Below, one piece after another: positions 7,257 to 41,098 of a stretch of DNA of 64,000 nt. Origin of the DNA: Lachnospiraceae bacterium GAM79 (lineage in GTDB: Bacteria; Bacillota; Clostridia; Lachnospirales; Lachnospiraceae); assembly GCA_003584705.1 (NCBI GenBank), contig AP018536.1, forward strand, positions 2,666,001 to 2,730,000. The letters run 5' to 3'. A program made the position numbers and the translations under genes. Every line of letters starts with the position of its first letter. The first letter of the stretch is position 1. Under the pieces are notes generated by a model. The model had not been told where the DNA came from. It did no database searches and saw only the letters and a list, made by a program, of their open reading frames with translations.

Positions 7257-7408
7257 GTAACGATTCAGGGCCATGAAATATTAGCGGATGTTCGTCGAAT
7301 GCTTGCATTTGTAAGAGCATCCGCTAATATTTCTTTGGCGAAGCAGCTTGTATGAGCAAAAAGAAAGCATCGAAGATGCGATTTTGCGATACTGCTCTGA
7401 ATAGTTAC
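7257..7408 (+). repeat. TAACTATTCAGA-family element, copy R3 (long form)
   Basis: Ends GTAACGATTCAG and TCTGAATAGTTAC. Contains the central hairpin with a perfectly paired 15-nt stem AAATATTAGCGGATG (7276-7290)/CATCCGCTAATATTT (7318-7332) around the conserved loop CGAATG-CTTG-CATTTG and GTAAGA, then GGCGAAGCA, a small hairpin GCATC-gaa-GATGC and TTTTGCGA. It begins immediately after the DUF5050 stop codon. Confidence 0.85.
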
Positions 7409-7424
7409 AGAATAATAACATAGC

Positions 7425-7462
7425 AAGAGCCGCAGACATTCCGCCTGCGGCTCTTATTTTTC
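7425..7462 (+). terminator. Rho-independent terminator
   Basis: Perfect 11-bp stem AAGAGCCGCAG/CTGCGGCTCTT followed by ATTTTTCG on the plus strand. It would end the DUF5050 transcript after element R3, and may also block minus-strand reading beyond arsR. Confidence 0.8.
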
Positions 7463-7482
7463 GTTCCCGTTGCAAATTGATT

Positions 7483-7833
7483 TTAACCTTCCTCGATATG
7501 GTTCAGGCCCTGATTCAGAATCGTGATGATATGGTCATCCGCCAGTGCATAAAAGATCGTCTTGCCGTCTCTGCGGTTTTTCACCAGATCCATCTGCTTC
7601 AATACCCGTAACTGATGGGAAATGGCAGACTGTGACATACCAAGCAGAGTGGCTATGTCATACACACACATTTCGGAGCACAGCAGCACCGACAAGATCT
7701 TCAGTCTTGTAGCATCTCCAAATACTTTAAAAAATTCTGCCAGATCCTGTAACTCCTCCTCCGGCGGCATCTTCTCATCGATCTGTCGGATGGTTTCCGG
7801 ATCTGCGGAAAGATAACTGTTCTTCTCTTCCAT
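7483..7833 (-). CDS. ArsR/SmtB-family metal-sensing repressor
   Basis: 116-residue winged-helix regulator of the ArsR/SmtB family. Helix-turn-helix: CVYDIATLLGMSQSAISHQLRVLKQMDLV, followed by the wing NRRDGKTIFYAL. The C-terminal helix has D-x-H-x10-H-x2-E (DDHIITILNQGLNHIEE), exactly the alpha-5 ligand spacing of SmtB, so zinc or cobalt sensing is likely. The alpha-3 arsenic/cadmium site is incomplete because only one cysteine of the usual pair remains (SEMCVYD). ATG 7833 has GGAG about 7 nt upstream. It stands alone with its own promoter, whose -35 lies inside the end of apbE. No metal transporter is adjacent, so the target cannot be named. Confidence 0.9.
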   Translation of the reverse strand: MEEKNSYLSADPETIRQIDEKMPPEEELQDLAEFFKVFGDATRLKILSVLLCSEMCVYDIATLLGMSQSAISHQLRVLKQMDLVKNRRDGKTIFYALADDHIITILNQGLNHIEEG

Positions 7834-7916
7834 TTTATTTCTCCATTATTTACTCTGTGATCCCTCTCTCAACAGAGGTTTTCTGCACTGACTGTTATCT
7901 ACGGTTAACTATATTT

Positions 7917-7945
7917 ACTATACACTATTTCTGCGAATTCGACAA
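7917..7945 (-). promoter_or_regulatory. Predicted arsR promoter inside the apbE 3' end
   Basis: Minus strand: -35 TTGTCG, 17-nt spacer, -10 TATAGT. The -35 and most of the spacer overlap the last codons and stop of apbE. The leader to the ATG is about 80 nt. Confidence 0.55.
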
Positions 7946-9016
7946 ATGAAAATATTGCCGCATGCCCTCTGTCATGGTGATCGTTCCCTCATGGTCGATG
8001 AACAATCCTTCCGCATCATACTTTTCCAGAAGTTTCTGGCCTTCCTCCTGTCCCAGTACAAAGCAGGCCGTAGACAGGGCATCACTTAAGAATCCGTCCT
8101 TCGTCACGATGGTGACCCCCGCCACATCACTGTGGGCCGGTGATCCGGTCCGGGGATCCAGTATGTGATGATATCTGACACCATCCACTTCCACATAACG
8201 TTCATAATCTCCCGATGTGGATACACAGTGCCCTCCGTCCAGTGTCAGCACGCCCACACTCTCCGAAGGATCCAGCGGATCTGTCACTGCGATCTGCCAG
8301 GCTCCACCCTCCGGCTTGCTTCCGTAAGTCAGGATGCTGCCGCCCACGGAAATCACGGCACCACTTACCTCCGGATGCGCTTCCAGTGTCTTAAGGATCT
8401 CATCCAGCGCCACACCTTTTCCCACAGCTCCCAGATCCAACTGCATTTCTGCGGGAATGCTCACCGAATCCCCGTCCGCCTGTTGTTCCAACTGAATTTT
8501 CTGCCAGCCTGTGGTGGCAAGAGCCTCCGCGATCTCTTCCTGCCTCGGCAGTTCATAATCCCCGGAATCTCCGGCAGCCGCCCAGGTATCAATGTCCCAC
8601 AGACGGCTGAGCCGGCCGATACTGACATCAAAGGCCCCGGCACTCTCCTCTGAGATCTGCCGGCATCTTCCCAGCCACTCAGACATCGCAGGAGATACGG
8701 AGGTCTGCCCTTCTCCAGCGGCTGCATTGATCCGCGCCACTTCCGCACTTTCCAGTCTCCAGGAAAGTTCTTTTTGTTCCAGATCGTTTAGTTTTTGTAA
8801 AAGAACATCTGTTATTTTCTCATTTATTTCACTATTTGTTGTGGTTGCGGAATTTCCGGTAACATAAACGGTCTGGGAGATCACGGTTCCCATGGCGGTA
8901 TCTATGCTTTTTTCGCATTCCGTTTTCTGCCCGCATCCCGCCAGAAAAAACACCGGGAGCATTGCCAGTAACGTTGCCCGCCGCAACGCCCGGGGCGTTT
9001 TCAAATACTTCTTCAT
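7925..9016 (-). CDS. apbE: FAD:protein FMN transferase, lipoprotein ApbE
   Basis: Attaches FMN covalently to threonine of flavoproteins such as Rnf/Nqr subunits on the outer face of the membrane. From ATG 9016 it is 363 residues. A lipoprotein signal (FFLAGC, lipidated Cys28) leads into the ApbE domain: DTAMGTVISQTVYV, LDLGAVGKGVALDEI (flavin site), VISVGGSILTYG and HHILDPRTGSPAHSD with the Mg-binding region. In-frame starts exist up to 9172, but they push the signal peptide inside. ATG 9016 has AAGGA 9 nt upstream, whereas ATG 9025 has it directly abutting. It is divergent from the NusG-II/Gx pair, with which ApbE genes often cluster. The flavinylated partner is not in the window. Confidence 0.9.
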   Translation of the reverse strand: MKKYLKTPRALRRATLLAMLPVFFLAGCGQKTECEKSIDTAMGTVISQTVYVTGNSATTTNSEINEKITDVLLQKLNDLEQKELSWRLESAEVARINAAAGEGQTSVSPAMSEWLGRCRQISEESAGAFDVSIGRLSRLWDIDTWAAAGDSGDYELPRQEEIAEALATTGWQKIQLEQQADGDSVSIPAEMQLDLGAVGKGVALDEILKTLEAHPEVSGAVISVGGSILTYGSKPEGGAWQIAVTDPLDPSESVGVLTLDGGHCVSTSGDYERYVEVDGVRYHHILDPRTGSPAHSDVAGVTIVTKDGFLSDALSTACFVLGQEEGQKLLEKYDAEGLFIDHEGTITMTEGMRQYFHLSNSQK

Positions 9017-9070
9017 TTTTTTCATTCCTTTTGCTATACTGTTCTCATCAGAAAGGAGTTCCTTATTCCT

Positions 9071-9499
9071 ATGAATCTTTCCATGAATGATCGAAAAAAA
9101 GCAGTTCTCCTTACCACCGCTCTGCTTGTAATAGCTGTCCTTTGCGTAGTGCGGATCTATGTAGTCTCGCACAGTTCCGTAGAAAACGGTCAGGCTCTCT
9201 ATGCCGATCTCTATCAGAACGGCGAATTATTGCAGACCATCCGTCTGGATACGGTGACCGCCGAATATACCTTTGAGGTCTCCGGGAATGCCGGTGCCAC
9301 GAATACCGTCTGTGTCCGTCCGGGCAGCATTGCCATCGTCTCTGCGTCCTGTCCGGATCAGATCTGCGTGCATCAGGGATTTATCAGCACCTCCCTGCTC
9401 CCCATCACCTGTCTGCCCAATCGGTTGGTGATCCGGGTCAGAGAAGAGGTTTCCGTTCCAGATGACACTGCACCGGTTCCGGACGGCGTGACCTACTGA
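9071..9499 (+). CDS. NusG domain II-containing membrane protein
   Basis: 142-residue protein with one N-terminal membrane segment (about residues 12-32, LLTTALLVIAVLCVVRIYVV) and an extracytoplasmic NusG domain II. Conserved cysteines occur in the pattern SCPDQICVHQGFIS...ITCLPNRLVI, as in this family. It lacks the NGN/KOW parts of true NusG and is not a transcription factor. AAGGAG lies 12 nt before ATG 9071, a slightly long spacing. It is followed after 90 nt by the Gx transporter gene and is divergent from apbE. This triad recurs in Clostridia and is presumed to belong to a redox or flavin-dependent envelope system. That role is inference. Confidence 0.82.
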   Translation: MNLSMNDRKKAVLLTTALLVIAVLCVVRIYVVSHSSVENGQALYADLYQNGELLQTIRLDTVTAEYTFEVSGNAGATNTVCVRPGSIAIVSASCPDQICVHQGFISTSLLPITCLPNRLVIRVREEVSVPDDTAPVPDGVTY

Positions 9500-9589
9500 C
9501 AGAATACCATTTTTGCCTGCACAGCGTACCAAAATGCACGGTACCAAACCACCGGACCATTTACGAATTACGAAAACACGGAGATTTTT

Positions 9590-10087
9590 ATGAAACCACC
9601 TGTAACTACCAGAAAACTGACGACGCTTTCTCTGTTGGCGGCCATTGCACTGGCGCTGTATGCCGTGGAAAGTGCTCTGCCCCCCATTGTCCCGATCCCG
9701 GGCATCAAGCTGGGGCTTTCCAATATAATAACGCTTGTTGTTCTATGGAAATATTCCGCAAAAGACGCCTTTTTCGTGCTTCTGGTGCGGATCCTTTTAG
9801 CGACCATGTTCTTCGGGCAGGCCATGAGTCTCCTGTACAGCCTGTCCGGCGGTATACTCTGCCTGTTTGCCATGTTGCTTGTGAAGCTGCTGTTGCATGG
9901 GAATTACCTGTTCCTCGCAAGCATGACAGGTGCTGTTTTTCACAATCTGGGGCAGATTGGAGTGGCGTTTCTGCTGACTTCCGTTCCCGCCGTGCTTGTC
10001 TATCTGCCGTTTTTGCTTCTCAGCGGTCTGGTGACCGGTTTGTTCATTGGTCTCTGTGCCCGCTTTACGCTTCGCTTCCTTCCGTGA
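9590..10087 (+). CDS. Gx transporter / heptaprenyl diphosphate synthase component I-like membrane protein
   Basis: 165-residue integral membrane protein with about five hydrophobic segments and the family start TRKLTTLSLLAAIALALYAVESALPPIVPIPGIKLGLSNIITL. It matches the Hpre_diP_synt_I/Gx transporter family, whose members are annotated as component I of heptaprenyl diphosphate synthase but look like ECF-type substrate-binding (S) components. The substrate is unknown. It probably forms one unit with the NusG-II gene. It ends convergently inside the 3' end of folBK, overlapping by 23 nt, with no hairpin terminator between them. Confidence 0.8.
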   Translation: MKPPVTTRKLTTLSLLAAIALALYAVESALPPIVPIPGIKLGLSNIITLVVLWKYSAKDAFFVLLVRILLATMFFGQAMSLLYSLSGGILCLFAMLLVKLLLHGNYLFLASMTGAVFHNLGQIGVAFLLTSVPAVLVYLPFLLLSGLVTGLFIGLCARFTLRFLP

Positions 10088-10922
10088 GATCCACGGGAAG
10101 CTCCGCCAGTATCTGTGCTACGGTCTTGTGAGTAATGGGATGACGGAAATTCGGTGCCAGCTCACTTAATGGCTTCAGTACAAAATAACGGTTCTCCATA
10201 TCTACATGCGGGATCACCAGATCCTCGGAGCTGTAGATCAAGTCATCATAGAAAATAATATCCAGATCCAGTGTCCGGGGGCCCCAGTGGATCTTCCGTT
10301 CCCGTCCTTCCGAGGCCTCGATCTTATGCAGTTCCCGCAACAGTTCTTCCGGTGTCAGCAATGTCCGGATCTCAAACATTCCGTTTACAAAATTGTCCTG
10401 TTCCACACCGCCGTAAGGCAATGTCTCCAGCAGTCCCGATACTTTCGTGACCTGTATGTCCTTATGCTTCTCCAGCTGGCCCAGTGCCTTCGCGATATGC
10501 TCTCTGCTGTCTCCCATATTGGAACCTACGGCAATATAGGCCTCATGCCATTCCCTGTGGATTGCCACAGACACGCTGCCAAAGGGCAGTGGAATCGGCG
10601 CTTCAGGTTTACGGATCTCCAGATCCAGTCCCTGTACCAGCGGGAAATGCTGCAATACCTCATAGGCAGTCCACTCCACCACCGTTTCGATCAGCTGAAA
10701 GGTATGCTGCTGCATAAACTCCGTAATAAACTGGCAGACCTCTCCGTAATTGGTGGAAAGGCGCAGATCATCCGCTATTCCCGCCGGGCGGGTGTTTGTA
10801 TACAGGGTGGCATTCACGTAAAAATGCTGTCCTTTTTCATTTTCTTCCGGATATACGCCGTGATGCGCATATACTTCCAGTTCTTCGATACGGATCTGAT
10901 CTTTCCGATTCTCATTTCTCAT
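10065..10922 (-). CDS. folBK: Fused dihydroneopterin aldolase / HPPK
   Basis: Bifunctional folate enzyme of 285 residues. Residues 1-120 are dihydroneopterin aldolase (IRIEELEVYAHHGVYPEENEKG), which makes 6-hydroxymethyl-dihydropterin. Residues 130-285 are 6-hydroxymethyl-dihydropterin pyrophosphokinase (AYIAVGSNMGDSREHI and RKIHWGPRTLDLDIIFYDDL). The FolB-FolK fusion is common in Clostridia and channels consecutive steps. ATG 10922 has GGCGGAG upstream. It is last in the folC-folE-HD-folP-folBK operon, 39 nt after folP. Confidence 0.95.
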   Translation of the reverse strand: MRNENRKDQIRIEELEVYAHHGVYPEENEKGQHFYVNATLYTNTRPAGIADDLRLSTNYGEVCQFITEFMQQHTFQLIETVVEWTAYEVLQHFPLVQGLDLEIRKPEAPIPLPFGSVSVAIHREWHEAYIAVGSNMGDSREHIAKALGQLEKHKDIQVTKVSGLLETLPYGGVEQDNFVNGMFEIRTLLTPEELLRELHKIEASEGRERKIHWGPRTLDLDIIFYDDLIYSSEDLVIPHVDMENRYFVLKPLSELAPNFRHPITHKTVAQILAELPVDLTEGSEA

Positions 10923-10961
10923 TTGCTGACTCCGCCTTTCCCGATACCTTTTCAGAGCTTT

Positions 10962-11777
10962 TTATTTTCCACTGTTTAAAATAGCCTCACACATTTTAAT
11001 GGTGCGGACATTTTCTTTCACATCATGCACCCGGACAAACATACATCCCTTTTGGACGCCGAACATGGTAGTCACCAGCGTTCCCTCCACTCTCTCCGTC
11101 ACCGGCAGATCCAGTGTCAGTCCGATCACGGATTTGCGGCTGCATCCTAAAAGCAACGGATAACCGAACATATTCAGTTCTTCCAGACAGTTGATGATCT
11201 CCAGATTGTTCTCATAGGTCTTGCCGAAGCCCACCCCGGGGTCTAAGATGATCTTCTCATCCGCGATGCCTGCCGCTTCCGCCAAATGGATCGTGTCCGC
11301 CAGATCCGCTGCCACATCCTGCATGAAATCCCGATAATCCGCTTCTTTACGGTTATGCATCAGACAACAGGGCAGACCGCTCTTCGCAATGACCTCTGCC
11401 ATACGATTATCATATTTCAAGCCCCAGATATCATTGATGAGATTCGCCCCCGCACGGATTCCCGCCTCTGCCACACCGCTTTTGTAGGTGTCCAGGGAAA
11501 TGGGAATGTCAAAATTTGCCTTCACCGACTCGATCATGGGTACGACTCTGGCAATCTCCTCCTCATCAGATAACAGGGTATAACCCCACGGTCTGGTGGA
11601 TTCTCCGCCGATATCCACAATATCCATCCCCTCAGCGATCATTTCTTCCACATGCTTCAATGCCCGGTCTCTGTCATTCCACTTTCCTCCGTCGGAAAAA
11701 GAATCCGGGGTCACATTCAGGATCCCCATTACATAAGTATGTCCTTTGGTCTGAAACTCTCTGTTGCCAATCTTCAT
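10962..11777 (-). CDS. folP: Dihydropteroate synthase
   Basis: Condenses hydroxymethyl-dihydropterin pyrophosphate with p-aminobenzoate to give dihydropteroate, the sulfonamide target step. The 271-residue TIM barrel shows both family signatures near its N-terminus, MGILNVTPDSFSDGG and DIVDIGGESTRPWG, plus ILDPGVGFGKTYENN, GCSRKSVIG and the C-terminal VRVHDVKE. ATG 11777 is preceded by GGGAG with 7-nt spacing. It is the fourth gene of the folate operon, downstream of the HD protein. No key residue appears missing. Confidence 0.96.
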   Translation of the reverse strand: MKIGNREFQTKGHTYVMGILNVTPDSFSDGGKWNDRDRALKHVEEMIAEGMDIVDIGGESTRPWGYTLLSDEEEIARVVPMIESVKANFDIPISLDTYKSGVAEAGIRAGANLINDIWGLKYDNRMAEVIAKSGLPCCLMHNRKEADYRDFMQDVAADLADTIHLAEAAGIADEKIILDPGVGFGKTYENNLEIINCLEELNMFGYPLLLGCSRKSVIGLTLDLPVTERVEGTLVTTMFGVQKGCMFVRVHDVKENVRTIKMCEAILNSGK

Positions 11778-11870
11778 TTGTTTTCTCCCTCATGTTTGTA
11801 TTATTTTTTGTTCGGATATGTTCCCCTACCGGGCACAGCTTTGCGAATTTCTCGGTTCAGCCTGTTGCAC

Positions 11871-12353
11871 TCAGTACCTGATCGTCAGGTTCTTCTTGCC
11901 GTCTTTCCAGTTGCAATCCTTCTCCGCATCGCAGGCGAAGCAGGCACGACTTGCCTTGTCTGCCCGGTAAAGAACGCCGTTTAGGTTCTTCTCTTTCGCG
12001 GCCTCGGGATCTCTGTGCCGTGAGATTGCAGTTACAATAACATCCGTTTCTTTATCGTCAAATCCACAGTTCTTAAGGATCTCCGGTGCGATCCGGGCAC
12101 TGGCCTGCTCATGAGGCGTGCCGTTCTCGTACTGTTCATGCTTCCCGCAATCATGGAGCAATGCCGCCGCATAGATCCACTCCCGGTCCAGTTCCAGTCC
12201 TTCCTCCAGAGCTATGATCGTCCCGATCCGGGCCACATCCAGAAAATGTACCATACTATGACGGCAGAAGCGTCTGTCTGCTTCTGCCGCATTGTTCTTT
12301 CCTAAATGGTATAAAAATAAATCATGATTTAATATTTTATCAATTCTGTCCAC
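11871..12353 (-). CDS. HD-domain phosphohydrolase in the folate operon
   Basis: 160-residue metal-dependent hydrolase of the HD superfamily: H-S-MVHFLDVARIG supplies the first histidine, AALLHDCGKHEQYENG the HD pair, and AISRHRDPEAAKEKN the later ligand region. The C-terminus has a cysteine group (CFACDAEKDC) not typical of HD domains. It begins with GTG behind GGGGGAA and lies between folE and folP. The substrate cannot be read from sequence. Its position suggests removal of phosphate from dihydroneopterin triphosphate, the step that has no other candidate here, but this is inference. A general nucleotide-hydrolase role is the alternative. Confidence 0.8.
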   Translation of the reverse strand: MDRIDKILNHDLFLYHLGKNNAAEADRRFCRHSMVHFLDVARIGTIIALEEGLELDREWIYAAALLHDCGKHEQYENGTPHEQASARIAPEILKNCGFDDKETDVIVTAISRHRDPEAAKEKNLNGVLYRADKASRACFACDAEKDCNWKDGKKNLTIRY

Positions 12354-12410
12354 AGGAGTTCCCCCATTTCGATCCGGTCTTTCCGCAGCTTCCTCTGGTC
12401 TTCATAATTT

Positions 12411-12974
12411 CTATCGGTTCACCAGCTGTAAGAATCTGTCCTGCAATTCCTTATTCTCCGCAAAGACTCCCCTTGTCACCATGGTAACGGTCTGACTGCC
12501 GGGCTTTTTGATCCCGCGCATGGTCATGCACATATGCTCTGCTTCCAACATTACCATAACTCCCTGAGGTGCCAGATATTTCATGATATCATCGGCGATC
12601 TGCGCCGTCATCCGCTCCTGGATCTGTAATCTTCTGGCATATACCTCCACAGTCCTGGCAAGCTTACTCAGACCCACAACCTTGCCATCGGGGATATACG
12701 CAACATGAGCTTTGCCGTAAAAAGGCATCAGATGATGCTCGCACATAGAATAGAAGGTAATATCCTTCTCCAGTACCATCTCGTTATTGTCTACTGAGAA
12801 GACCTTCGACAGATGCTCTCCCGCATCCTGATCCATACCGCCGCAGATCTCTTCATACATCCTGCCGATCCGCTCCGGTGTCTCCTTCAGTCCTTCTCTA
12901 TCGGTATCTTCCCCGATTCCTTCCAGTAAAAGCTTTATTGCTTCCTGTACTTTCTTCTGATCTACCATTTTCAC
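12411..12974 (-). CDS. folE: GTP cyclohydrolase I
   Basis: Converts GTP to 7,8-dihydroneopterin triphosphate, the first committed folate step. The 187-residue type I enzyme has the zinc site in [45 protein letters not shown], and the second zinc cysteine in [17 protein letters not shown]. The GTG at 12974 overlaps the folC stop by 4 nt and has GGAAAG upstream; an ATG two codons in (12968) is the alternative start. Tight coupling to folC supports a single transcript. Confidence 0.96.
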
Positions 12975-14287
12975 CGCTTCGCTTTCCGTTTATTCCCTGC
13001 TGTCTGTCTCTTCTCCATGAGCTTCAGGATTCTTCCCAGATAAGAGAGAGAGCCGAAGCACAATATCACATCATCCCGTCCTGCCAGCAGGTGACTAAGC
13101 TCCACTGCCTCTTCCAGGCTGTCCACCGCCGTCACATTGGGGTGTACCTTTGCCACCTCCGTTGCCAGATCATAAGCATGCATGGCTCTGGGATTGTCCG
13201 GAGGTGTCACCGTGAGAATCTGATCCGCATACTTCTCCGTCAGCGCGATCACGCGGTCCACTTCCTTGTCCTTTAACATTCCCATTATATAGATAATTCT
13301 TTTGTTTGTAAAATAGAATTCTATGGAATCCGCAAGTTTTACGGCTGCATCCTCGTTATGCGCGCCGTCCACTATAAATAACGGGTGTTCTTTCAGTATT
13401 TGCAGCCTTCCGTTCCAGACAGTCCCCTTCAGGCCTTTCCGAATGGCAGTCTCTTTGATCTCATAACCGCATTTCCCCAGAGCCTCCACCGCTTCTACCG
13501 CCAGCACAGCATTTGCTACCTGGAATTTCCCCGCAAGGGTGATCTCCAGCTTTTTATAATTTCCATAATCGAAGGTCTGCTTTTTCAGTCCGTATTTCAC
13601 ATGCTTTGCATTTGCCACATCTGCGATGGTCAGCATGCAGCCAAGCTCTGCCGCCGTCTGCTCCACAACCTTTTGTGCCGCTTCCTTTTGCCGCATGGAG
13701 ACCACCTGACATCCCGGCTTACAGATTCCTGTCTTGTGTGCTGCGATCTCCTCCAGACTGTTCCCTAAGAATTTCATATGATCCATACCGATGGAAGCCA
13801 GTACCGCCACCTGCGTGGTCGTGATCAGATTTGTAGCATCCTCCCTGCCGCCCATACCGGTCTCCAGTACGACGATATCACACTGTTTTTCCCGGAAATA
13901 CCAAAAAGCCAGCGCCGTCTCAATTTCAAAGGGCGTCGGATGATGGAAGCCGTCACTTACCATAGCATCACAATGCTTTTTTATGATCTCCAGTCCTTCA
14001 CACAGATCCTTATGCGTGATCTTCTGCTTTCCGATCTGGATTTTTTCACAATATTCAATAATAACAGGTGATATATATTTTCCCACACGGTATCCGGCCG
14101 CCTGTAAGATGCCGGAAATATAAGCAAGTGTGGATCCTTTTCCGTTGGTTCCCGCAATATGCACAAATTTTAATTCATCCTGCGGATTTCCCAGTCTCCT
14201 GCACAGTTCCCGGATGCTGTCCAGCCCCGGAACGATGCCGTAAGTTCCCACTTTTTCCATATATTCCATTGCTTCCTGATAGTTCAT
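12971..14287 (-). CDS. folC: Dihydrofolate synthase / folylpolyglutamate synthase
   Basis: Mur-ligase family enzyme adding glutamate to dihydropteroate and then gamma-linked glutamates to folates. 438 residues from ATG 14287, chosen because GGGAGAG sits 6 nt upstream; the frame is open 12 codons further but without a better site. Motifs: [18 protein letters not shown] (P-loop), [33 protein letters not shown], and [10 protein letters not shown] in the C-terminal glutamate-ligase domain. It is the first gene of the folate operon, with a predicted promoter 30-60 nt upstream overlapping the start of a divergent gene. Confidence 0.95.
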
Positions 14288-14318
14288 AGCAATCTCTCCC
14301 GTATCATACGCTGAAAAT

Positions 14319-14347
14319 TTCATATACTATGTCCATGAAAATGACAA
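14319..14347 (-). promoter_or_regulatory. Predicted folate-operon promoter
   Basis: Minus strand: -35 TTGTCA, 17-nt spacer, -10 TATGAA. The box pair lies within the first codons of the divergent CmpB-like gene. Confidence 0.5.
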
Positions 14348-14757
14348 AATCCTTCGCAAACTCTTTTAAAACCTTCGGCAGGAGCTTTCTCCTGTGCGGG
14401 CTGTGCGGCTGGTGCATGGAGATCCTGTTCACAGCGCTGCACTCCCTTCGGCGCAGGGATCTGCGTCTTACCGGTAATACTTCCCTGTGGATGTTCCCTA
14501 TCTACGGCTCCGCCTGCCTGCTTGCACCCTTCAAACGGCTTTTTGAGCACCTGAATATCAGTCGTCCCGGGCGCGGGCTGTTCTATATGGCTATGATCTT
14601 CACCGTGGAATATCTCAGTGGGCGCCTATTGTGGAAGCATGGTCTCTGCCCCTGGGATTACGGTAAAAGCCGTTTCCACATCCACCGGATCATCCGGCTG
14701 GACTATGCTCCCTGGTGGTTCCTGGCAGGACTGTTTTTTGAAAAGATCCTGCCCTGA
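14329..14757 (+). CDS. CmpB-family (PF06541) membrane protein
   Basis: 142-residue integral membrane protein of the family often labelled putative ABC transporter permease (ABC_trans_CmpB). Characteristic stretches are LLCGLCGWCMEILFTALHS, TGNTSLWMFPIYGSACLLAP, EYLSGRLLW and CPWDYGKSRFHIHRIIRLDYAPWWFLAGL. It has three to four hydrophobic segments, no ATPase partner nearby, and no experimentally defined role I know of. The start is uncertain: ATG 14329, 14335 and 14341 are all possible and none has a clear ribosome site, perhaps because the divergent folC promoter occupies this sequence. Confidence 0.75.
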   Translation: MSMKMTKSFANSFKTFGRSFLLCGLCGWCMEILFTALHSLRRRDLRLTGNTSLWMFPIYGSACLLAPFKRLFEHLNISRPGRGLFYMAMIFTVEYLSGRLLWKHGLCPWDYGKSRFHIHRIIRLDYAPWWFLAGLFFEKILP

Positions 14758-14771
14758 ACCGTTTTACTGCA

Positions 14772-16145
14772 TTACTGCATTGCTTCTGCCAGCATCCGTT
14801 CCTCATGACCCTTTTTGTCCCTCACCATCTTCTTCATGAGGAAATGATAAGCGATCCAGAGGAAAATACCTGCGGTCAGCCAGGCTGAGGCATTGGCAAA
14901 GCACACACCCACATAACTCATCAGATGCGCTGCCGCAAAAGCCACGATACCACGGCTCAACAATTCCACCACACCGCCCATCATTGGCATGAAGCCGAAG
15001 CCACAGCCCTGCAGCGCATTTCGGAAGATAAATATCATTCCCAGCGGAATGAAGAACATGCCACAGATCGTAATATACGTTCTGGCATAGCCGCATACCA
15101 TCTCAACCTGTTCGGAGATGAACAGCGGTACAATATAAGGAAGTGCTATATATACTAGTCCGTAGACAAGCACCGCATAGACACCGGACATGATATTGGC
15201 AGCTTTCACGCCCTTACGGATCCGGTTCAGATCATTGATGCCGCGGTTCTGCGCACAGTAAGTTGCCATAGTCACACCCATTGCAGCAAAGGGCTGTGTC
15301 ACCAGCTGTTCCACCTTGCAGGACACCGAATAAGATGCCACCACGGTAGAACCCAGCAGATTCAGTGCTGCCTGTACCAGAATGGTACCGATAGCAGTAA
15401 TGGAAAACTGCAGTGCCATGGGAATTCCCACGGTCAGCTGATTTTTCACACACTGACTTTCCAGTCTGCAATGCTCCGGACGGATATGCAGTGTAGGTAC
15501 TCTCTTAATAATATAAATCAGACACAGTACACCGGATAATCCCTGCGAAATGATGGTAGCATAAGCTGCACCGCCCACTCCCATATGACCGTAAACGATC
15601 AGTACATAGTCCAAGACAATATTCGTCACCGAAGCGATCACCAGCAATACTAACGGCACCACACTGTTGCCGATGGCACGCAGGATACTGGACAACAGGT
15701 TATACAATACATTGCAGGCAATTCCCGCACAGATGATCATAATGTATTCCTTCGTCATATCAAAAATATCTTCCGGAGTATTCATCACCCGAAGCAGCCT
15801 GTCCATACTGGCCATACTGACTGCCGTCATCACGATTGTCACGATCACCGACAGGATGGCTGCGCTTCCGATACTTTTGCGCATACCCTCCCGGTCCCCG
15901 GCTCCGAAGCGTTGTGCCGTCAGCACAGTAAATCCGGTGGTCAGCCCCTGGGTAAATCCCAGGATCAGGAAGCTTACCGACCCGGTGGCTCCTACTGCCG
16001 CCAATGCATCCACACCTACGAAACGACCCACGATAATGGTATCCACCATACTGTATAACTGTTGGAAAATATTACCTATGATAATAGGAATGATAAATTT
16101 TGTAATCAGCTTAGAAGGACTGCCCTTCGTCATATCAAGTTCCAT
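14772..16145 (-). CDS. MATE-family multidrug/Na+ antiporter
   Basis: 457-residue exporter with about twelve membrane helices, typical for the family. The N-terminus KLITKFIIPIIIGNIFQQLYSMVDTIIVGRFVG is diagnostic, as is GATGSVSFLILGFTQGLTTGFTVLTAQRFGAGD. The second half repeats the fold (ALQFSITAIGTILVQAALNLLG). It probably exports cationic drugs or metabolites using a Na+ or H+ gradient; substrate unknown. ATG 16145 is preceded by GAAGAG. A terminator lies directly upstream at 16160-16186, so the gene is likely transcribed alone or by read-through. It ends 14 nt from the convergent CmpB-like gene. Confidence 0.9.
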   Translation of the reverse strand: MELDMTKGSPSKLITKFIIPIIIGNIFQQLYSMVDTIIVGRFVGVDALAAVGATGSVSFLILGFTQGLTTGFTVLTAQRFGAGDREGMRKSIGSAAILSVIVTIVMTAVSMASMDRLLRVMNTPEDIFDMTKEYIMIICAGIACNVLYNLLSSILRAIGNSVVPLVLLVIASVTNIVLDYVLIVYGHMGVGGAAYATIISQGLSGVLCLIYIIKRVPTLHIRPEHCRLESQCVKNQLTVGIPMALQFSITAIGTILVQAALNLLGSTVVASYSVSCKVEQLVTQPFAAMGVTMATYCAQNRGINDLNRIRKGVKAANIMSGVYAVLVYGLVYIALPYIVPLFISEQVEMVCGYARTYITICGMFFIPLGMIFIFRNALQGCGFGFMPMMGGVVELLSRGIVAFAAAHLMSYVGVCFANASAWLTAGIFLWIAYHFLMKKMVRDKKGHEERMLAEAMQ

Positions 16146-32149: not shown

Positions 32150-32566
32150 CTAGTTGATCTCGTATTTTCCGGCTTCCTTCAGGCGCAGCATAGCTCTCGC
32201 CATGGATGCCTGGGATACATGGTACTCCTGAATGCTCTGCTTCTGACGCAGCTGCTCTTTGGCACGCTCCAGAGCGGCTTCCGCACGGACTCTGTCGATA
32301 TCCTCCGGGCGCTCCGCCGTATCCACCAGCATGATCACACGGTTATGAGAAATGTAGACACAGCCCACACCGACTACGGCCTTGGTCCAGTCGTCATCCT
32401 CTTTTTCCTTAAACCGTACCTCGCCTTCCTTCGTGGCAATGACCATATCCTCATGATGGGACATGATGGCCTGCTCGCCGTCCAGAGCCGGTACGATAAT
32501 GATGCCGCATTTTCCGTCGAAAAATACTTTATCACTGGCAATGACCTTCAAGCTGAAGGTGTTCAT
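32150..32566 (-). CDS. atpC: ATP synthase epsilon subunit
   Basis: Central-stalk subunit of F1 that can inhibit ATP hydrolysis. 138 residues: N-terminal beta sandwich (NTFSLKVIASDKVFFDGKCG, VPALDGEQAIMSHHEDMVIAT) and a C-terminal two-helix hairpin (DRVRAEAALERAKEQLRQKQ). ATG 32566 has AAGGCGGTG upstream; a GTG two codons earlier is also possible. It is the last gene of the atp operon, 17 nt after atpD. Confidence 0.93.
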   Translation of the reverse strand: MNTFSLKVIASDKVFFDGKCGIIIVPALDGEQAIMSHHEDMVIATKEGEVRFKEKEDDDWTKAVVGVGCVYISHNRVIMLVDTAERPEDIDRVRAEAALERAKEQLRQKQSIQEYHVSQASMARAMLRLKEAGKYEIN

Positions 32567-32583
32567 ACGCACACCGCCTTTCC

Positions 32584-34922
<2,339 letters not shown>

Positions 34923-34940
34923 GTTAACCTCCTGTTATTT

Positions 34941-35032
34941 GTAACTATTCAGAGCCAATGGGCGAAGTAACCACATAAGCAAAAGTAAAGCCCTGAAAGA
35001 GCGGTTTTGCGAATGGGTTTCTGAATAGTTAC
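34941..35032 (+). repeat. TAACTATTCAGA-family element, copy R4 (short form), atpA-atpG spacer
   Basis: GTAACTATTCAGA and TCTGAATAGTTAC are perfect terminal inverted repeats. Interior: GCC-AATG-GGCGAAGTAACCACATAAGC, a degenerate hairpin GCCCTGAAAGAGC, then GGTTTTGCGAATGGG. Like R1 it lacks the central stem-loop. It fills the spacer between the atpHA stop and the atpG ribosome site. Confidence 0.9.
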
Positions 35033-35033
35033 A

Positions 35034-37058
35034 TTATTTCTGTAAAAATTCCTTTTTAAATTCTGTTGCAGCATCACAGATCTGCTTGTTCAGCTCGTCA
35101 TCCAGAGCCTTGGTGGTCTCTAACTGACGAACGATGTCGCTGTGCTGTTCCTTCATGTAGTCTAAGTACTTCATCTGGAAATCCTTTACCTGATTTACAG
35201 GCACATCCAGCATCACTCTGCCGTTGGCTGCACACAGGGTCATAACCTGCTCTGCCATGCTCAAAGGCCTGCACAGAGGCTGCTTCAACAGTTCCATCAG
35301 TACATGTCCGTGCTGTAACTGTTCCTTTGTGGCGTTATCCAGATCAGATGCGAACTGGGTGAACACTTCCATCTCACGGAACTGTGCCAGGTCGATACGG
35401 ATACTTCCGGCTGCTTTCTTCATTGCCTTGGTCTGTGCAGCACCGCCGACACGGGATACGGACAGACCGACATTGACTGCAGGTCTCATGCCGGAGAAAA
35501 ACAGATCACTCTCCAGGAAGATCTGACCATCGGTAATGGAGATAACGTTGGTCGGAATGTATGCGGATACATCGCCTGCCTGGGTCTCAATGATCGGCAG
35601 TGCGGTGATGGAGCCGCCGCCCTTATCGGCACTCAGTCTTGCGGAACGCTCCAGCAGTCTGGAATGCAGATAGAATACATCTCCGGGATATGCCTCACGT
35701 CCGGGAGAACGTTCCAGCAACAGGGACAGTGCACGATAAGCTACCGCATGCTTGGACAGATCATCGTATACGATGAGGACATCCTTGCCCTGATACATAA
35801 AGTACTCAGCCAGTGCGGTACCGGAATAAGGTGCGATGTACTGCAGAGGTGCAGGATCGCTGGCGGTTGCGGATACGATAATGGTGTAATCCATGGCATC
35901 GTTCTTTTTCAGGGTTCCTACCAGTTTTGCAATGGTGGATGCCTTCTGGCCGATGGCCACATAGATACATACCACATCCTTGCCCTTCTGGTTCAAAATT
36001 GCATCGATGGCAATGGAAGTCTTACCGGTCTGACGGTCACCGATGACCAGTTCACGCTGTCCACGACCGATGGGGAACATGGAATCGATAGCCAGAATAC
36101 CAGTCTCCATAGGCACGCCTACGGACTGTCTGTCCACGATGGAAGGTGCCGGCTGCTCGATGGGACGATAGCCTTCTTCCTTAATAGGACCTGCACCGTC
36201 AATGGGTGCTCCCAGAGCATCCACGATTCTGCCTTTGAATCCGTCACCTACAGGAATACCGGCTCTCTTACCGGTACGAACGACCCTGGTGCCTTCGCGG
36301 ATCTCGGTATCATGACCGAACAGGATACATCCGATCTCATCTCTGCGGACATCCTGTACCATACCTTTGACACCGGAATCAAAGATAACGATCTCGCCGT
36401 ACTCTGCATGGTCGATACCATTGACGTTGGCGATACCGTCACCTACCCAGCTGACAGAACCGATCTCATTTTCCTGTGCCTGTAAGTTGAAATCCTCGAT
36501 CTCACCTTTCAGAATGGAAATGATGCCCTGCTCACTGGCGGTCTTTCCTACCTGGGAAAGCTTGTCTGCGAACTGCTTCATACGTCCATTGGTACTCCAG
36601 TCATAGACCTCGTTACCGGCACGGATGATGAAACCGCCGCCAAGAGAAGGATCTTCTTTGGTCTCAAAGACCATATCCTCTCTGTTGTATTTCTTCTGGA
36701 TAAAATTACGGATATTCTGCAGCTGCTCATCGGTGGGCGCTGTCACATAGGACAGGGTTACAACGAACTCTTCCTTTTTCTCGGGAGAGGCTTCTCTGTA
36801 TGCGGTGCAGATATCATCCCACAGATAGACGTCTCCGTTGTCACACAGGACTTTCAGAAAATCTCTGATCTGTAAGGGGAATACTTTTTCTATTACATTG
36901 TGCTTGGCAGACAGCGACACAGCAGGGGATTCGAAATCCAGCTTCACCTGCGGTACGGCTTTGAAGATATCGCCTGTCTGACCTACAATGTCTCCGGGGA
37001 TATTCAGTTCACGCAATCTTTTTGCGTATTCTAAAGCTGTACTAATCAATCTTTTCAC
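35034..37058 (-). CDS. atpHA: Fused ATP synthase delta-alpha subunit
   Basis: 674-residue fusion. Residues ~1-175 correspond to the delta (OSCP) subunit: [64 protein letters not shown]. Residues ~175-674 are a full alpha subunit with [16 protein letters not shown] (Walker A), the alpha signature [21 protein letters not shown] and the [25 protein letters not shown] region. The join is in frame with no stop and the length equals delta plus alpha, so this is a real fusion rather than an assembly gap. GTG 37058 overlaps atpF by 17 nt. No separate atpH or atpA exists in the operon. Confidence 0.93.
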
Positions 37059-37530
37059 CTGTCTTTGCTATAAATTGGTTGTAAAGTTCTCTGTCTGAAT
37101 CTGCGTTCTGCTTGGCAGCTACCAGTTTTGCAGTAGCTTCCACTACCAGGCCGGCGATCTGTTCCTGTGCCTGCTCGATGCGCTTCTGCTCTTCCAGTGT
37201 GGCATTCTTACTGGCATTGTCCATGATCTTTTTCGCTTCTGTCTGGGCATCTGCCACGATGCGGTCATATTCGTTGCTGGCCTTGCCTCTTGCCTCGTTC
37301 AGAATGCTTTCTTTTTCTGCCTGAACACCGCTTAAGGATGCCTCGTACTGGCCTTTCAGTTCATTGGCACTGTCCTGTGCAGCTTTTGCATCTGCATATT
37401 GCTTATCGATCTCTGCCTGTCTTGCATCCAGGATCTTGTGGATGGGCTTGATCAGGAAGATCTTCACAATGGCAAAGATGATCAACAGATTCAGGATGGT
37501 CCATACAATATTAATATCTAATCTCAGCAT
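37042..37530 (-). CDS. atpF: ATP synthase b subunit
   Basis: Peripheral-stalk subunit, 162 residues: a single N-terminal membrane helix ([25 protein letters not shown]) followed by a long alanine- and charge-rich coiled coil ([26 protein letters not shown]...). ATG 37530 follows AAAGGATG. It overlaps the start of atpHA by 17 nt, so the b subunit and its partner delta domain are translationally coupled. Confidence 0.93.
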
Positions 37531-37571
37531 GTGCTTTCATCCTTTCTTACGTTTCGCTTTCTAATTTCCTT

Positions 37572-37720
37572 ATAACTATCCGAAACTTCCATTCGCAAAA
37601 CGCTCTTTCAGAGCTTTCTTTTTGCTCATGGAGTTTTAGTCGTCGTAAATCGTCACAAAACAGCTTACAAATGCAGGCATTTGACGCTTGTCTGTGACGT
37701 TTCCGGCTTCGGATAGTTAT
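37572..37720 (-). repeat. TAACTATTCAGA-family element, copy R7 (long form, reversed), atpE-atpF spacer
   Basis: Terminal repeats are ATAACTATCCGAA and TTCGGATAGTTAT: both ends carry the same changes relative to the family consensus, so they remain perfectly complementary. On the minus strand the interior has the central hairpin with stem CGTCACA/TGTGACG around CAAATG-CCTG-CATTTG and GTAAGC, then ATGAGC, a hairpin GCTCT-gaa-AGAGC and GTTTTGCGAATGG. It starts inside the atpE stop codon and fills most of the spacer. Confidence 0.85.
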
Positions 37721-37932
37721 GCCATGAACAGAATGATCAGGATGCCGATAACGAATCCGTAAATAGCGGTTGCCTCTGCCAGCGCACCACCTAACAGTAA
37801 GATCTTGGTGATCTTGCTCTCTGCTTCCGGCTGTCTTGCGACTGCCTCTGCTGCTTTACTTGTTGCGATACCGATACCGATACCTGCTCCGATACATGCC
37901 AGTGCTGCAATACCTGCTCCAATAGCTATCAT
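37717..37932 (-). CDS. atpE: ATP synthase c subunit
   Basis: 71-residue hairpin protein forming the rotor ring in the membrane. Two helices flank the polar loop ARQPE. The ion-carrying carboxylate is Glu53 in [13 protein letters not shown]. Compared with Na+-binding c subunits of the Ilyobacter type, the glutamine ligand is Ile20 and the serine after the glutamate is Ala54, so proton coupling is more likely. ATG 37932 follows CGGAGG. It is flanked on both sides by structured repeats of one family. Confidence 0.95.
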
Positions 37933-37970
37933 AATTCTTTTCCTCCGTTTTTGTGTGAATTAGTGTTTCA

Positions 37971-38013
37971 TAACTATTCATAATCGCATTCGCAAAATAG
38001 CTCTGAATAGTTA
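37971..38013 (-). repeat. TAACTATTCAGA-family element, copy R8 (minimal), atpB-atpE spacer
   Basis: TAACTATTCA (37971-37980) and TGAATAGTTA (38004-38013) enclose only AGAGCTATTTTGCGAATGCGATTA-type sequence when read on the minus strand; the piece TTTTGCGAATG matches the end module of the long copies. Confidence 0.8.
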
Positions 38014-38018
38014 TCCAG

Positions 38019-38729
38019 TTACTCAATGGCTTCCTTAATGTACATGGATGTCAGGAATACAAATACATATGCCTGAATCAATCCATCAAAAATATCAAAG
38101 TAAAAGCTGAAGGGTACCGGCAATGCCACCGGAACCAGAAGCTTCAACAGCTCCATGATAACGAATGCTCCCAAAACGTTACCAAACAATCGCATACACA
38201 GGGACAGGGGCTTGATGAACACCTCCAGGATATTGATAGGTGTTACGATCGCGATGGGTTCGGTAAAGCTCTTGATCCATCCGCCCACACCTTTTTTGCG
38301 GATACCTGCGGCTTCCACCAGAACGATACTCATCAGGGCCAGTGCCGCCGTTACGTTCAGATCCTTGGTAGGGGGCTTCATACCGAACAATCCAATGATA
38401 TTGGATATGCCCAGATACAACAGTACGCTAACCAGATATGGTACATACCGTTTGCCTTCTTCTCCGATCATTCCCGTAACAATGCCTTCCAGCTTTGTCA
38501 CGATCGTCTCTGCCACCAGCTGTCGTCTGCTGACATTGTGTACTTTGAGGTTGCTTGTAAGGATAATCGACAAGATCAGAATGACTGCCATGACCACCCA
38601 GGTGATAACGACCGATTCCGCAATGTCCAGCTGTACTCCACCGATCAGGGGTAGACCTGCCGGAAGCTTAATAGAAAAAGCCGTGTCACAATTCAGTTCC
38701 TTGAGCAGTTCTGATGCCAATTCCTCCAT
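38019..38729 (-). CDS. atpB: ATP synthase a subunit
   Basis: Membrane stator subunit forming the ion half-channels, 236 residues with about six hydrophobic segments. The essential arginine lies in LSLCMRLFGNVLGAFVIMELL and the family's C-terminal motif is FDGLIQAYVFVFLTSMYIKEAIE. ATG 38729 follows GGAAAGGAAG. First gene of the operon atpB-E-F-HA-G-D-C. No atpI is present upstream. A weak TAAAAT -10-like box lies about 80 nt upstream, but no convincing -35 is visible. Confidence 0.93.
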   Translation of the reverse strand: MEELASELLKELNCDTAFSIKLPAGLPLIGGVQLDIAESVVITWVVMAVILILSIILTSNLKVHNVSRRQLVAETIVTKLEGIVTGMIGEEGKRYVPYLVSVLLYLGISNIIGLFGMKPPTKDLNVTAALALMSIVLVEAAGIRKKGVGGWIKSFTEPIAIVTPINILEVFIKPLSLCMRLFGNVLGAFVIMELLKLLVPVALPVPFSFYFDIFDGLIQAYVFVFLTSMYIKEAIE

Positions 38730-38904
38730 AATACCACTTCCTTTCCGTGAACATCCTTGAAAGAGCTTTCACTCCCTCACGGTCGTTGCTATTTTACTCC
38801 TATTTATTGAAAAACGTAAGATACATTTTTGCTAATTTGTTCCATGCAAAAATGAAAAGTTATGGCATATATTAACTATAAAAAATGAGGTATCAGAAAA
38901 TCAT

Positions 38905-39528
38905 ATGACAAAATTAGTCATTTTGGGACGCAAATCCCAGACGGGCAATTATGAGACGTTTTTTTCGAAACTTCCCGCCAGAACCGTAACCACACTGGTC
39001 CCCGGGGAAGTCACCTCCTGTGATGCCTTGATTCTGCCGGGCGGCGGAGATATCACTCCGGCTTTTTTCGGAGAAAAAAACAAAGGTTCCCGTACTGTTG
39101 ACACCGAACTGGACATCCTGCAATTTCAGGCCCTTGACACAGCCATTGCCGCCGGGATCCCCGTGATCGGGATCTGCAAGGGCATGCAGGTCATCAATGT
39201 TGCCTTCGGTGGCACTATTTTGCAGGATATGTCGGGAGATTCCCTGCACAGTATCCCCTCCGGTGATGCATTCCATACGTCCATTATGACGGAAGATTCC
39301 CGTCTTTTCAAGTATTTTCCTGTCGAAATGCACGTCAACAGCGCCCACCATCAGAGGATCGACCGCTTAGGTCAGCATCTGAAGATCATTCAGCGCTGCC
39401 CCGATGACGGCTGCCCCGAAGCTTTGGAGCATGACGAGCTGCCGATCCTTGGGCTGCAGTGGCATCCGGAGCGTCTTCCGGAACAGGCCGGTGAGCCTCT
39501 GCTTTCTCTTCTTTCTTCCTATTTCTGA
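38905..39528 (+). CDS. Class I glutamine amidotransferase / gamma-glutamyl-GABA hydrolase family (peptidase C26)
   Basis: 207-residue hydrolase. The oxyanion region ALILPGGGDITPAFFGE, nucleophile elbow VIGICKGMQVINVAFGGT with the catalytic Cys, and LGLQWHPERLPE with the catalytic His-x-Glu define the PuuD-like peptidase C26 family, which cleaves gamma-glutamyl bonds. It is somewhat shorter than PuuD (~250). The ATG has only GAGG at 14 nt. The last 143 nt overlap, antisense, the end of the DUF2974 gene, a long convergent overlap. Substrate unknown. Confidence 0.85.
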   Translation: MTKLVILGRKSQTGNYETFFSKLPARTVTTLVPGEVTSCDALILPGGGDITPAFFGEKNKGSRTVDTELDILQFQALDTAIAAGIPVIGICKGMQVINVAFGGTILQDMSGDSLHSIPSGDAFHTSIMTEDSRLFKYFPVEMHVNSAHHQRIDRLGQHLKIIQRCPDDGCPEALEHDELPILGLQWHPERLPEQAGEPLLSLLSSYF

Positions 39529-40648
39529 ATCTGCGCCCGGGCTTTTTCGCCGGGGCCAGCTCCTCTCTGACCTTGACTTTGGCGATTTCGAACAGGGAGC
39601 GGATGATTCCCCGCAGCATCTCCGCGGTCTGGTCGTCCACTTCCTTCAGTGCAGTAACCACCGCATTCATACTCTTTTTCCAGTCAGCGGTAAACGTGAT
39701 CAGATCATCCGCCTGGGATGCGGAGATGACCTGATAGAGTGTTTCCACGAAGGTGCGGACCTGTTCTTCATTTAAGGATAGGATCCATTCGTTCAGTGCT
39801 TCATTCATGATCTTCTGGCTCTCATAAATGTCACCCACATCCACGAAATGGTCCTCCTCCACCAGCCAGGAAAAAGGATCGTGCTGCAAAAGCCCATGGC
39901 TGTTGCTCTCCACCACGCGGTAATGAATATCCCGCTCGAAAATCATACCGATCATGGAAGAATGTGGCAACAGCTTCACCACCTTGCCTTCGATGGCATT
40001 ATAGTGACACTCCTTCAGCATTTCCGGCCGGAATCCAGGCCCATCCAGACTGTAGATCTTCTGGATCCGTTTCTGCACAAAAGGGGCGCATTTCATGGCA
40101 CTGTAGACTGCCAGATTGCCGCCCTTGGAATGCCCTCCGATATAAAAGGGCTGGTGCAGCCATCCGGTGACCATATTTACATATTTTACACTGTACTCCT
40201 GCCCCGGCACCGGTGACAGAAATGCCATGTTGAAATCTTCCTTCCAGCCTACGATAGTCTCATCCGTTCCCCGGAATGCCAGAAACAGGGTTCCGTCATC
40301 CAGAATAAAAGTGATGGCGGAGAACTGGGTCTCCCATTCCTTTTCCACCAGATTGATATAGCAGTTCAGCTTCATATCCCGGAAACGTCTGCCACTTAAC
40401 ATTCCTTCGAACAGCGCCCGGTTCTCCTTCTCAAAACGGACATCCCCGAACAGTTTGTCCACGTCCGGACGCTCTGCAATCTCCCGCAGGGTCACGGAAG
40501 GGCCATTGTGCCGCACATCGCTGACCATCCCGTCGAATTTCAGATAAGAGAGCTGGCACAATGCCAGACTGTCCACATCATTCAGAGGTTTTTCCCGAAA
40601 AGAAATGTCTCCGTATTTTTGCAAATATTCTATTACCGTTCCTGCCAT
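39386..40648 (-). CDS. DUF2974 (Mbeg1-like) alpha/beta-hydrolase
   Basis: 420-residue protein of the DUF2974/Mbeg1-like family, an alpha/beta-hydrolase fold. DGTLFLAFRGTDETIVGWKEDFN and the nucleophile elbow YIGGHSKGGNLAVYSAM (serine in GHSKGG) are clear; the C-terminal ~90 residues are basic and low in complexity (PGRRFRNRKKEEKAEAHRP...), reading across the end of the convergent amidotransferase gene. ATG 40648 follows AAAGGAG. Lipase or esterase chemistry is inferred; substrate unknown. The odd tail may have arisen by stop-codon loss into the neighbouring gene. Confidence 0.85.
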   Translation of the reverse strand: MAGTVIEYLQKYGDISFREKPLNDVDSLALCQLSYLKFDGMVSDVRHNGPSVTLREIAERPDVDKLFGDVRFEKENRALFEGMLSGRRFRDMKLNCYINLVEKEWETQFSAITFILDDGTLFLAFRGTDETIVGWKEDFNMAFLSPVPGQEYSVKYVNMVTGWLHQPFYIGGHSKGGNLAVYSAMKCAPFVQKRIQKIYSLDGPGFRPEMLKECHYNAIEGKVVKLLPHSSMIGMIFERDIHYRVVESNSHGLLQHDPFSWLVEEDHFVDVGDIYESQKIMNEALNEWILSLNEEQVRTFVETLYQVISASQADDLITFTADWKKSMNAVVTALKEVDDQTAEMLRGIIRSLFEIAKVKVREELAPAKKPGRRFRNRKKEEKAEAHRPVPEDAPDATAAQGSAARHAPKLRGSRHRGSAE

Positions 40649-40709
40649 ATGCCGCTCCTTTCCGCGAGGAACTTTCCTTGCGTATTTCGCTGGATTGTGT
40701 TACGTTCTA

Positions 40710-40914
40710 TATAATGATGCCAGGGTCAAAAGGTCTAAGCCCACATGAGCTTGCTCATAGGTGGGTGAAAGACCTTAGGACCCGCCCCGATATGAGCATA
40801 AAAGTGGGATGATAATCCCACGATATGCGAATATTGGGTAGGATTGTGGGAGTGCGTAGCACGGAACAATCCGTAGGCATCAAAGTCGGGGGCTTTTGAC
40901 CCCGACATCATATA
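40710..40914 (-). repeat. Multi-hairpin element with long terminal inverted repeats
   Basis: Ends TGATGCCAGGGTCAAAAG and CTTTTGACCCCGACATCA pair over 18 nt with two differences, both G-U wobbles on the minus strand. Inside are hairpins 40730-40779 (AAGGTCT/AGACCTT enclosing TGAGC-tt-GCTCA), 40804-40821 (GTGGGAT-gata-ATCCCAC), 40841-40872 (GGATTGT/ACAATCC enclosing GTGC-gta-GCAC) and 40885-40906 (GTCGGGG/CCCCGAC). It occupies most of the non-coding 40649-40922 and directly adjoins copy R5 of the other family. Confidence 0.7.
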
Positions 40915-40922
40915 ATTATATG

Positions 40923-41098
40923 GTAACTATTCAGAGCCATGCAAATCATGTCAACATGTACGTCGAATGCTTGCATTCGTAAGAACATTTGATATGATTT
41001 ATATGGCGAAGTAACCACAATGAGCAGAGAACAGGCCGGCCTGTTCTCCAAGGAAGCCTCATAGAGGCGACTTTGCGAATGGAGGTCTGAATCGTTAC
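40923..41098 (+). repeat. TAACTATTCAGA-family element, copy R5 (long form)
   Basis: Ends GTAACTATTCAGA and TCTGAATCGTTAC. Central hairpin stem AAATCATGTCAACATGT (40943-40959)/ACATTTGATATGATTT (40985-41000), with one bulge, around CGAATG-CTTG-CATTCG and GTAAGA. Then GGCGAAGTAACC, a perfect hairpin GAGAACAGGCC/GGCCTGTTCTC, a hairpin GCCTC-at-AGAGGC and TTTGCGAATGG. The most complete copy, upstream of the TetR gene. Confidence 0.9.

Follow-up and report, generated by a model that had tools for sequence, protein, structure and literature searches.

The 64,000-nucleotide stretch of the Lachnospiraceae bacterium GAM79 genome analysed here (contig AP018536.1, positions 2,666,001 to 2,730,000; hereafter the window) holds eight related intergenic elements, which an earlier note had described as a structured family that it did not recognise, with conserved loops and stems that vary freely while staying paired. 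We find that they are copies and remnants of a non-autonomous family of about 155 bp, GTAACTATTCAGA…TCTGAATAGTTAC, and that this family, far from standing alone, is an IS66-type miniature inverted-repeat transposable element (MITE) that has moved as DNA, with a covarying secondary structure in its interior, and alignment supports kinship of that interior to the Rfam family Clostridiales-1 (RF01699). Taking these together, we consider it likely that the family is a non-autonomous IS66-family MITE, ISBst12-like, that carries a Clostridiales-1-related three-way-junction RNA as its cargo. Element coordinates are given throughout as positions in the window, and the covariance model used for searching (R1) was built from 18 full copies of the bacterium's own genome.

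A full copy reads TGTAACTATTCAGA-GCC...P2...GGC-GAAGTAA-CC...P3...GG-TCTGAATAGTTACA over about 155 bp, and its interior folds as a three-way junction whose outer stem, P1, is the inverted repeat of the element's ends. P2 is a long hairpin of variable stem and conserved tip (CGU-CGAAUG-CUUG-CAUUCG-UAAG, with a G(CUUG)C end), and P3 (CAUGAGCAAAA...UUUUGCGAAUG) is a stem that a conserved tandem G·A interrupts; a small hairpin closes it at the tip, and some copies have an extra hairpin inserted. Three copies folded singly gave P1, P2 and P3 arms with z-scores of -10.3, -6.8 and -8.7, which none of 200 shuffles of each equalled; for the 40922 copy, no pairing at the base of P3 was predicted.

Evaluating covariation in a plain MAFFT alignment of the 18 own copies, we found that 32 of the 58 pairs change on both sides, with 106 double-changed cells compared with 32 in shuffled alignments (0/500) and 20 to 36 for slid versions of the structure, and that among 38 copies picked from nine genomes the same holds for 43 of the 60 pairs, with 280 double-changed cells compared with 81 shuffled (0/500) and 58 to 73 slid; both counted structures derive from the fold of one aligned member, which favours them over the slid versions. 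Under a tree-based null that we wrote after the idea of R-scape, and that is not R-scape itself, 17 of the 59 structure pairs of the larger alignment were significant when structure pairs alone were tested and 7 at the all-pairs level, while no pair off the structure passed the all-pairs level in either alignment. For the outer five pairs of P1, counted in the 106 of 135 copies with both anchors and with related copies left unthinned, double-changed cells are Watson-Crick in 60 of 96 cases (expected one-third), despite spoiling the transposon end. Paired changes thus exceed every shuffle and every slid structure, and with 17 of 59 pairs passing the tree-based null the proposal of selection on structure made in the earlier note is supported.

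Some variation lies in the arms and junction themselves. Three P3 variants (L122, L123, L165) keep the tandem G·A with changed flanking pairs (for example ACC-GA-GGAAA / TTTTC-GA-GGT, read by eye), and in four others (L010, L129, L143, L147) the tandem G·A is altered on both strands to ATAAGC/GCGCAT. Several copies from relatives (L113, L114, L116, L122, L181 and others) have a predicted extra junction hairpin, GGC-GAGA or GAA-GCC, which may form a four-way junction in competition with P2 and P3 extension.

The family has moved as DNA, as judged from its IS66-like end repeats, its 8-bp target duplications and a length too short for a transposase gene, with none found inside. At the register GTAAC...GTTAC the flanking 8-mers are exact duplications in 10 of 71 copies, with a mean identity of 0.495 compared with at most 0.343 for the other registers tested at 8-bp length; these 71 are the sense-strand matches retained from 102, the 31 dropped being mostly antisense echoes and otherwise weak or partial. 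Among 40 further copies, mostly weaker, three have an exact 8-bp duplication. The own genome also carries two identical, complete elements of 1817 bp, bounded by GTAACTATTCAGC...CTGAATAGTTAC and flanked by 8-bp duplications that are exact (ATTTTTAT and GTTTTTTT), encoding a 485-aa protein that matches NCBIfam transpos_IS66 at 263.2 bits (cut-off 180) and also Pfam DDE_Tnp_IS66. The end repeats on both of these IS66 copies, GTAACTATTCAG...CTGAATAGTTAC, match the MITE ends, and by eye the MITE and this putative helper share only the first 12 and the last 16 bases. For ISDge4, a member of the ISBst12 group within the IS66 family, ends GTAACTGCTCAGCA/GTGACTACTCAGCA, one open reading frame (ORF) and an 8-base direct repeat are reported (PMC12898284); the MITE resembles it in its GTAACT..TCAGCA ends and 8-base repeat and differs from this one-ORF element in having no transposase. 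A second, different IS66-family transposase is encoded in a 557-aa frame at G000:890695-891555, and MITE-type end repeats are absent from the 2.8 kb around it. The earlier note had set against its own proposal the case of a transposon-derived MITE with stems that differ solely through recent inversions or insertions; a MITE it is, but the stems vary by compensatory change.

The kinship of the interior emerged from comparison with Rfam. At gathering scores Rfam 15 gave no match on any MITE element of the window, and the sole match in the window at that level is a canonical Clostridiales-1 RNA at 40715-40882. At a lowered threshold, RF01699 (gathering cut-off 48 bits) matches seven of nine element loci, in each case covering the element and sharing its strand, at 46.1 to 30.0 bits and all below the cut-off, with no match at that threshold on the other two (L116 and L123). 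Across the own genome there are 80 RF01699 matches at E<=0.001, nine of which coincide with MITE places (lists compared by eye), with L014, L015 and L020 added to these nine by the lowered-threshold search and its laxer filters, so that the Rfam comparison proposed in the earlier note puts four MITE copies over the cut-off (58.8, 55.9, 54.5 and 49.5 bits) and leaves the others matched below it. The best-scoring MITEs of this genome, L061, L054 and L069, belong to one four-copy subfamily, whose fourth member, L067, scores 46.0 bits. MITE places of relatives were matched below the cut-off in G022 and G015 and just over it in G004:C84 (49.1 bits), and 14 control genomes gave no RF01699 matches.

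Residue by residue, the parts that align are the GCUUGC tip, the A-GG that follows it, the stem with the tandem G·A, and the closing stem, such that both RNAs have a closing stem, a GCUUGC-tipped P2 and a P3 with an AUGAGC/GCGAAU tandem G·A in the same order, and both occur in many copies per genome. They differ in their fourth stem, GGAUUGnGGGAG...CGGAGCAAUCC in Clostridiales-1, which is missing from the MITE copy aligned (34 model positions are skipped in L061), and in their ends, the MITE having IS66-type ends with 8-bp duplications whereas canonical copies have TGATG ends with 5-bp duplications. Because the fourth stem is absent, we regard the MITE interior as a relative rather than a plain member of Clostridiales-1. 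Clostridiales-1 is listed as a probable RNA, probably not cis-regulatory, from Clostridiales and the human gut (PMC2864571); a literature search, with subscription journals largely outside it, found no link between Clostridiales-1 and MITEs or IS66.

The earlier note had placed selection at the level of RNA or of single-stranded DNA, and here the mismatches point to RNA and make the DNA level the less favoured of the two. We folded the copies with G·U disallowed and tallied the isolated mismatches within helices as distinct contexts, which gave 72 G·U and 33 A·C contexts among 135 copies (p 0.0004; 45:22 in the first 95 copies, 27:11 in the 40 new ones), compared with 277:262 in a null simulated by random mutation of the first 95 sequences, though once contexts are collapsed to 3+3 bases the ratio is 25:18 and not significant (p 0.45). 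An excess of G·U over A·C of about 2:1 favours selection on RNA, and it supports conservation of the structure as RNA, on the strand where P2 precedes P3.

We find it unlikely that the family is a plain IS66 MITE whose paired stem changes arose by quasi-palindrome template switching, with one arm serving as template for the other during replication and no selection acting on structure. Such copying seems to have left traces: in eight copies the P3 5' strand has become ATTCGC, which pairs perfectly with GCGAAT on the 3' strand, two more (ten in all) carry the ATTCGC strand with a changed partner, and several outer-stem changes swap runs of two or three pairs. These P3 copies are probably products of arm copying. 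Template switching should, however, erase the tandem G·A mismatch, which is retained exactly in 98 of 135 copies and altered to the complement in eight; it predicts G·U and A·C in equal numbers, where 72:33 was observed (25:18 with contexts collapsed); and the tip remains CUUG-like while the stems change. Arm copying therefore probably happens, yet it does not explain the whole pattern of stem change.

Less probable again is that what maintains the structure is recognition of single-stranded DNA or a cruciform in transposition, and not RNA. P1 is indeed the transposase end repeat, and elements mobilised as single strands often carry hairpins, but IS66, a DDE element that makes 8-bp duplications, is not known to need hairpins. 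R1 matches neither helper copy (150 of 1213 candidates scored), the G·U excess lies on one strand, and pairing often persists in copies whose outer ends have changed.

The reading of an IS66-type MITE with an RNA cargo has points that weigh against it, beyond the one-member origin of the counted structures, the collapsed mismatch ratio and the copied P3 arms. In the smaller alignment only 4 of the 58 pairs pass the tree-based null, 2 of them at the all-pairs level, and the outer P1 count includes 83 one-sided changes that leave the pair broken, from which we conclude that many copies decay. Most RF01699 matches on MITEs score below the cut-off, the match on L039 (49.5 bits, over it) takes in about 30 bases of flank, and R1 returned no canonical Clostridiales-1 copy among the 150 of 1213 candidates scored, so that the kinship is seen one way only. 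An IS66 transposase was not found in five of seven carrier relatives, two of those five being 99% complete, and PF03050 was found in two of the seven (one a fragment), judged by protein only; all seven genomes are in many contigs. As for orientation to host genes, 30 strong copies examined in longer flanks, with gene calls by longest ORF, comprise 13 sense with both neighbours, 9 antisense and 8 mixed, and the one copy scanned for a promoter had no convincing one.

All eight places listed in the earlier note are real, although it had not shown that two of them (37571 and 37970) lie on the minus strand. R1 recovers six (4771, 7256, 34940, 37571, 40922 and 43159), and the remaining two, 6108 and 37970, are remnants, the one at 6108 consisting of two fused end repeats within a degenerate Clostridiales-1 copy (Table 1). 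The hairpin with the CGAATG / CATTCG / GTAAGA tip is present in four copies, as had been claimed: 7256, 37571 (where the tip reads CAAATG/CATTTG and the outer stem TATCCGAA/TTCGGATA), 40922 and 43159. In the last of these P1 and P3 are gone and P2 persists within a short ATATTCC/GGAATAT stem, as read by eye. Searched with up to 3 mismatches, the loop pattern has 27 matches genome-wide and its reversed control 0.

Table 1. MITE copies, remnants and Clostridiales-1 copies, with positions in the window
Feature	Position	Strand	Basis and remarks
MITE copy without P2; extra hairpin AATAACATGC/GCATGTTATT in P3	4771..4885	+	R1 74.0 bits; sequence
Degenerate Clostridiales-1 copy enclosing the 6109 remnant	6035..6188	-	RF01699, G000:2672035-2672188, 41.0 bits, below cut-off 48
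Remnant, end repeat only, GTAACTATTCAGAATAGTTAC	6109..6129	.	sequence
Full copy (P1, P2, P3), immediately after a DUF5050 gene	7256..7409	+	R1 148.9 bits; flanking 8-mers AAAATAAT / AGAATAAT, 7/8 identical
Copy without P2	34940..35033	+	R1 91.2 bits; flanking 8-mers 3/8 identical
Full copy, ATP synthase operon, sense	37571..37721	-	R1 116.8 bits; flanking 8-mers 0/8 identical
Short remnant, P1 and part of P3, ATP synthase operon	37970..38014	-	sequence
Canonical Clostridiales-1 RNA (40715-40882), adjoining the 40922 copy	40715..40910 (element)	+	RF01699 158.2 bits
Full copy, extra P3 hairpin GAGAACAGGCC/GGCCTGTTCTC	40922..41099	+	R1 137.4 bits; flanking 8-mers 6/8 identical
P2-only remnant	43159..43282	+	R1 69.3 bits

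The window copies adjoin unrelated genes, and three lie within the ATP synthase operon, where the 34940 copy, in antisense orientation to both, separates the gamma gene from the fused delta-alpha gene; the gene downstream of the 40922 copy has a weak TetR-type match (TetR_C_8, 26.7 bits with a cut-off of 26.1). This setting bears on whether the elements are an ordinary cis-regulatory RNA or ribosomal leader spread by duplication, which we hold to be very improbable: the strong structure and the many copies would suit it, but the target duplications disfavour it, as do the unrelated neighbour genes in the window, the occurrence of copies in both orientations and the finding that, among 96 loci compared, no insertion site is shared between species with both flanks joined at the element. 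Comparing full with P2-deleted copies (46 copies, 27 of them ambiguous), we counted 6 sense and 0 antisense for the full form and 0 and 3 for the shortened one (Fisher p 0.012), the other copies lying between opposite-strand genes; because the longer-flank count gave 13 sense and 9 antisense, we make no claim of orientation for the two forms. A small ORF in P3 (ATGAGCAAA...TAG) was rejected as a candidate, its ATG being lost in copies with CATTCGC or CATAAGC.

The covariance-model search proposed in the earlier note extends the family well beyond the window. In the own genome R1 has 81 matches at E<=0.01; once the 10 that overlap another match in opposite orientation are set aside, 71 distinct places remain, 37 of which span 140 nt or more, and the 71 is a lower bound because only 150 of 1213 first-look candidates were scored. 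At E<=0.001 R1 has matches in at least 21 of 36 further genomes from the genus, where 49 candidates were scored per genome under stricter filters and counts are likewise lower bounds, and in 1 of 24 genomes from other families of the order, this lone match (G032) resembling by eye the antisense of an element. The P3 pattern occurs in at least 117 stretches of named genomes, and among the 80 matches listed all but a few are titled Lachnospiraceae or other Clostridia-type, with three plain outsiders among them (a Bacteroidales, a Pinibacter and a Hahellaceae).

Clostridiales-1 copies are themselves packaged in more than one way. The canonical ones (L299-L304, L319, L322, L325 and that at 40710-40915) are TGATG...CATCA elements of 195 to 245 bp, with 5-bp target duplications exact in 5 of 9 (a tenth, L305, left out); the window example is 196 bp long, with TATAA duplicated at 40710-40714 and 40911-40915. 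An end-repeat search for a helper of this type gave four stretches, and in the two read by eye, over ORFs of at least 150 aa and parts of one sequence, no transposase was recognised, no family search having been run. In 14 of 19 copies of this genome classed as non-canonical (L307, L309-L313, L317, L318, L320, L321, L323, L324, L327, L328) a long sense ORF ends close to where the closing stem begins, its stop codon falling between -5 and +6 relative to that point, which suggests, with no control run, that many closing stems contain or touch a stop codon and pair with a copy-specific partner. Copies also form tandem arrays (G000 1879004-1879472, 1560395-1560731 and 2766159-2766511), and the G·U test on 30 Clostridiales-1 copies gave 10 G·U and 5 A·C distinct contexts, too few events to read.

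We tentatively propose, as a joint reading to which we give somewhat less than even chances, that RNA of the Clostridiales-1 type is a mobile domain, the equivalent in bacteria of eukaryotic short interspersed elements, that would have been packaged at least twice between unrelated transposon ends (the IS66 type with 8-bp and the TGATG type with 5-bp duplications), may be selected as RNA in untranslated regions (UTRs), and in a third group may sit on gene stop codons with copy-specific closing stems. As to how the MITE could move and persist, the IS66 transposase would act on it in trans, and a copy inserted between genes would be transcribed by read-through from its neighbours, its transcript forming a compact folded RNA module in a UTR that might be bound by a host protein or limit decay and so make insertions tolerable or useful. 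The parts recognised would be the GU/UAA internal loop, the tandem G·A, the CUUG tip and the junction bases; the GU/UAA loop is presumably like a GNRA-tetraloop receptor, a likeness not used here. We favour read-through and a UTR module because the neighbours are unrelated, no orientation bias is clear and no good promoter was seen in the one copy scanned, and the function given to the folded module is a guess that we regard as doubtful.

Bacterial MITEs and repeats that act at the RNA level, such as NEMIS/Correia or ERIC, are likewise short and intergenic, have end inverted repeats and fold when transcribed, but they are mostly simple hairpins, whereas this MITE keeps a branched fold and conserved loops in the face of stem turnover throughout a genus. 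The usual fate of MITEs is to decay like neutral DNA, and here a transposon interior behaves like selected RNA across a genus. The finding connects Clostridiales-1, an orphan family in Rfam, with transposition; this link would account for the family's copy number and makes its function testable.

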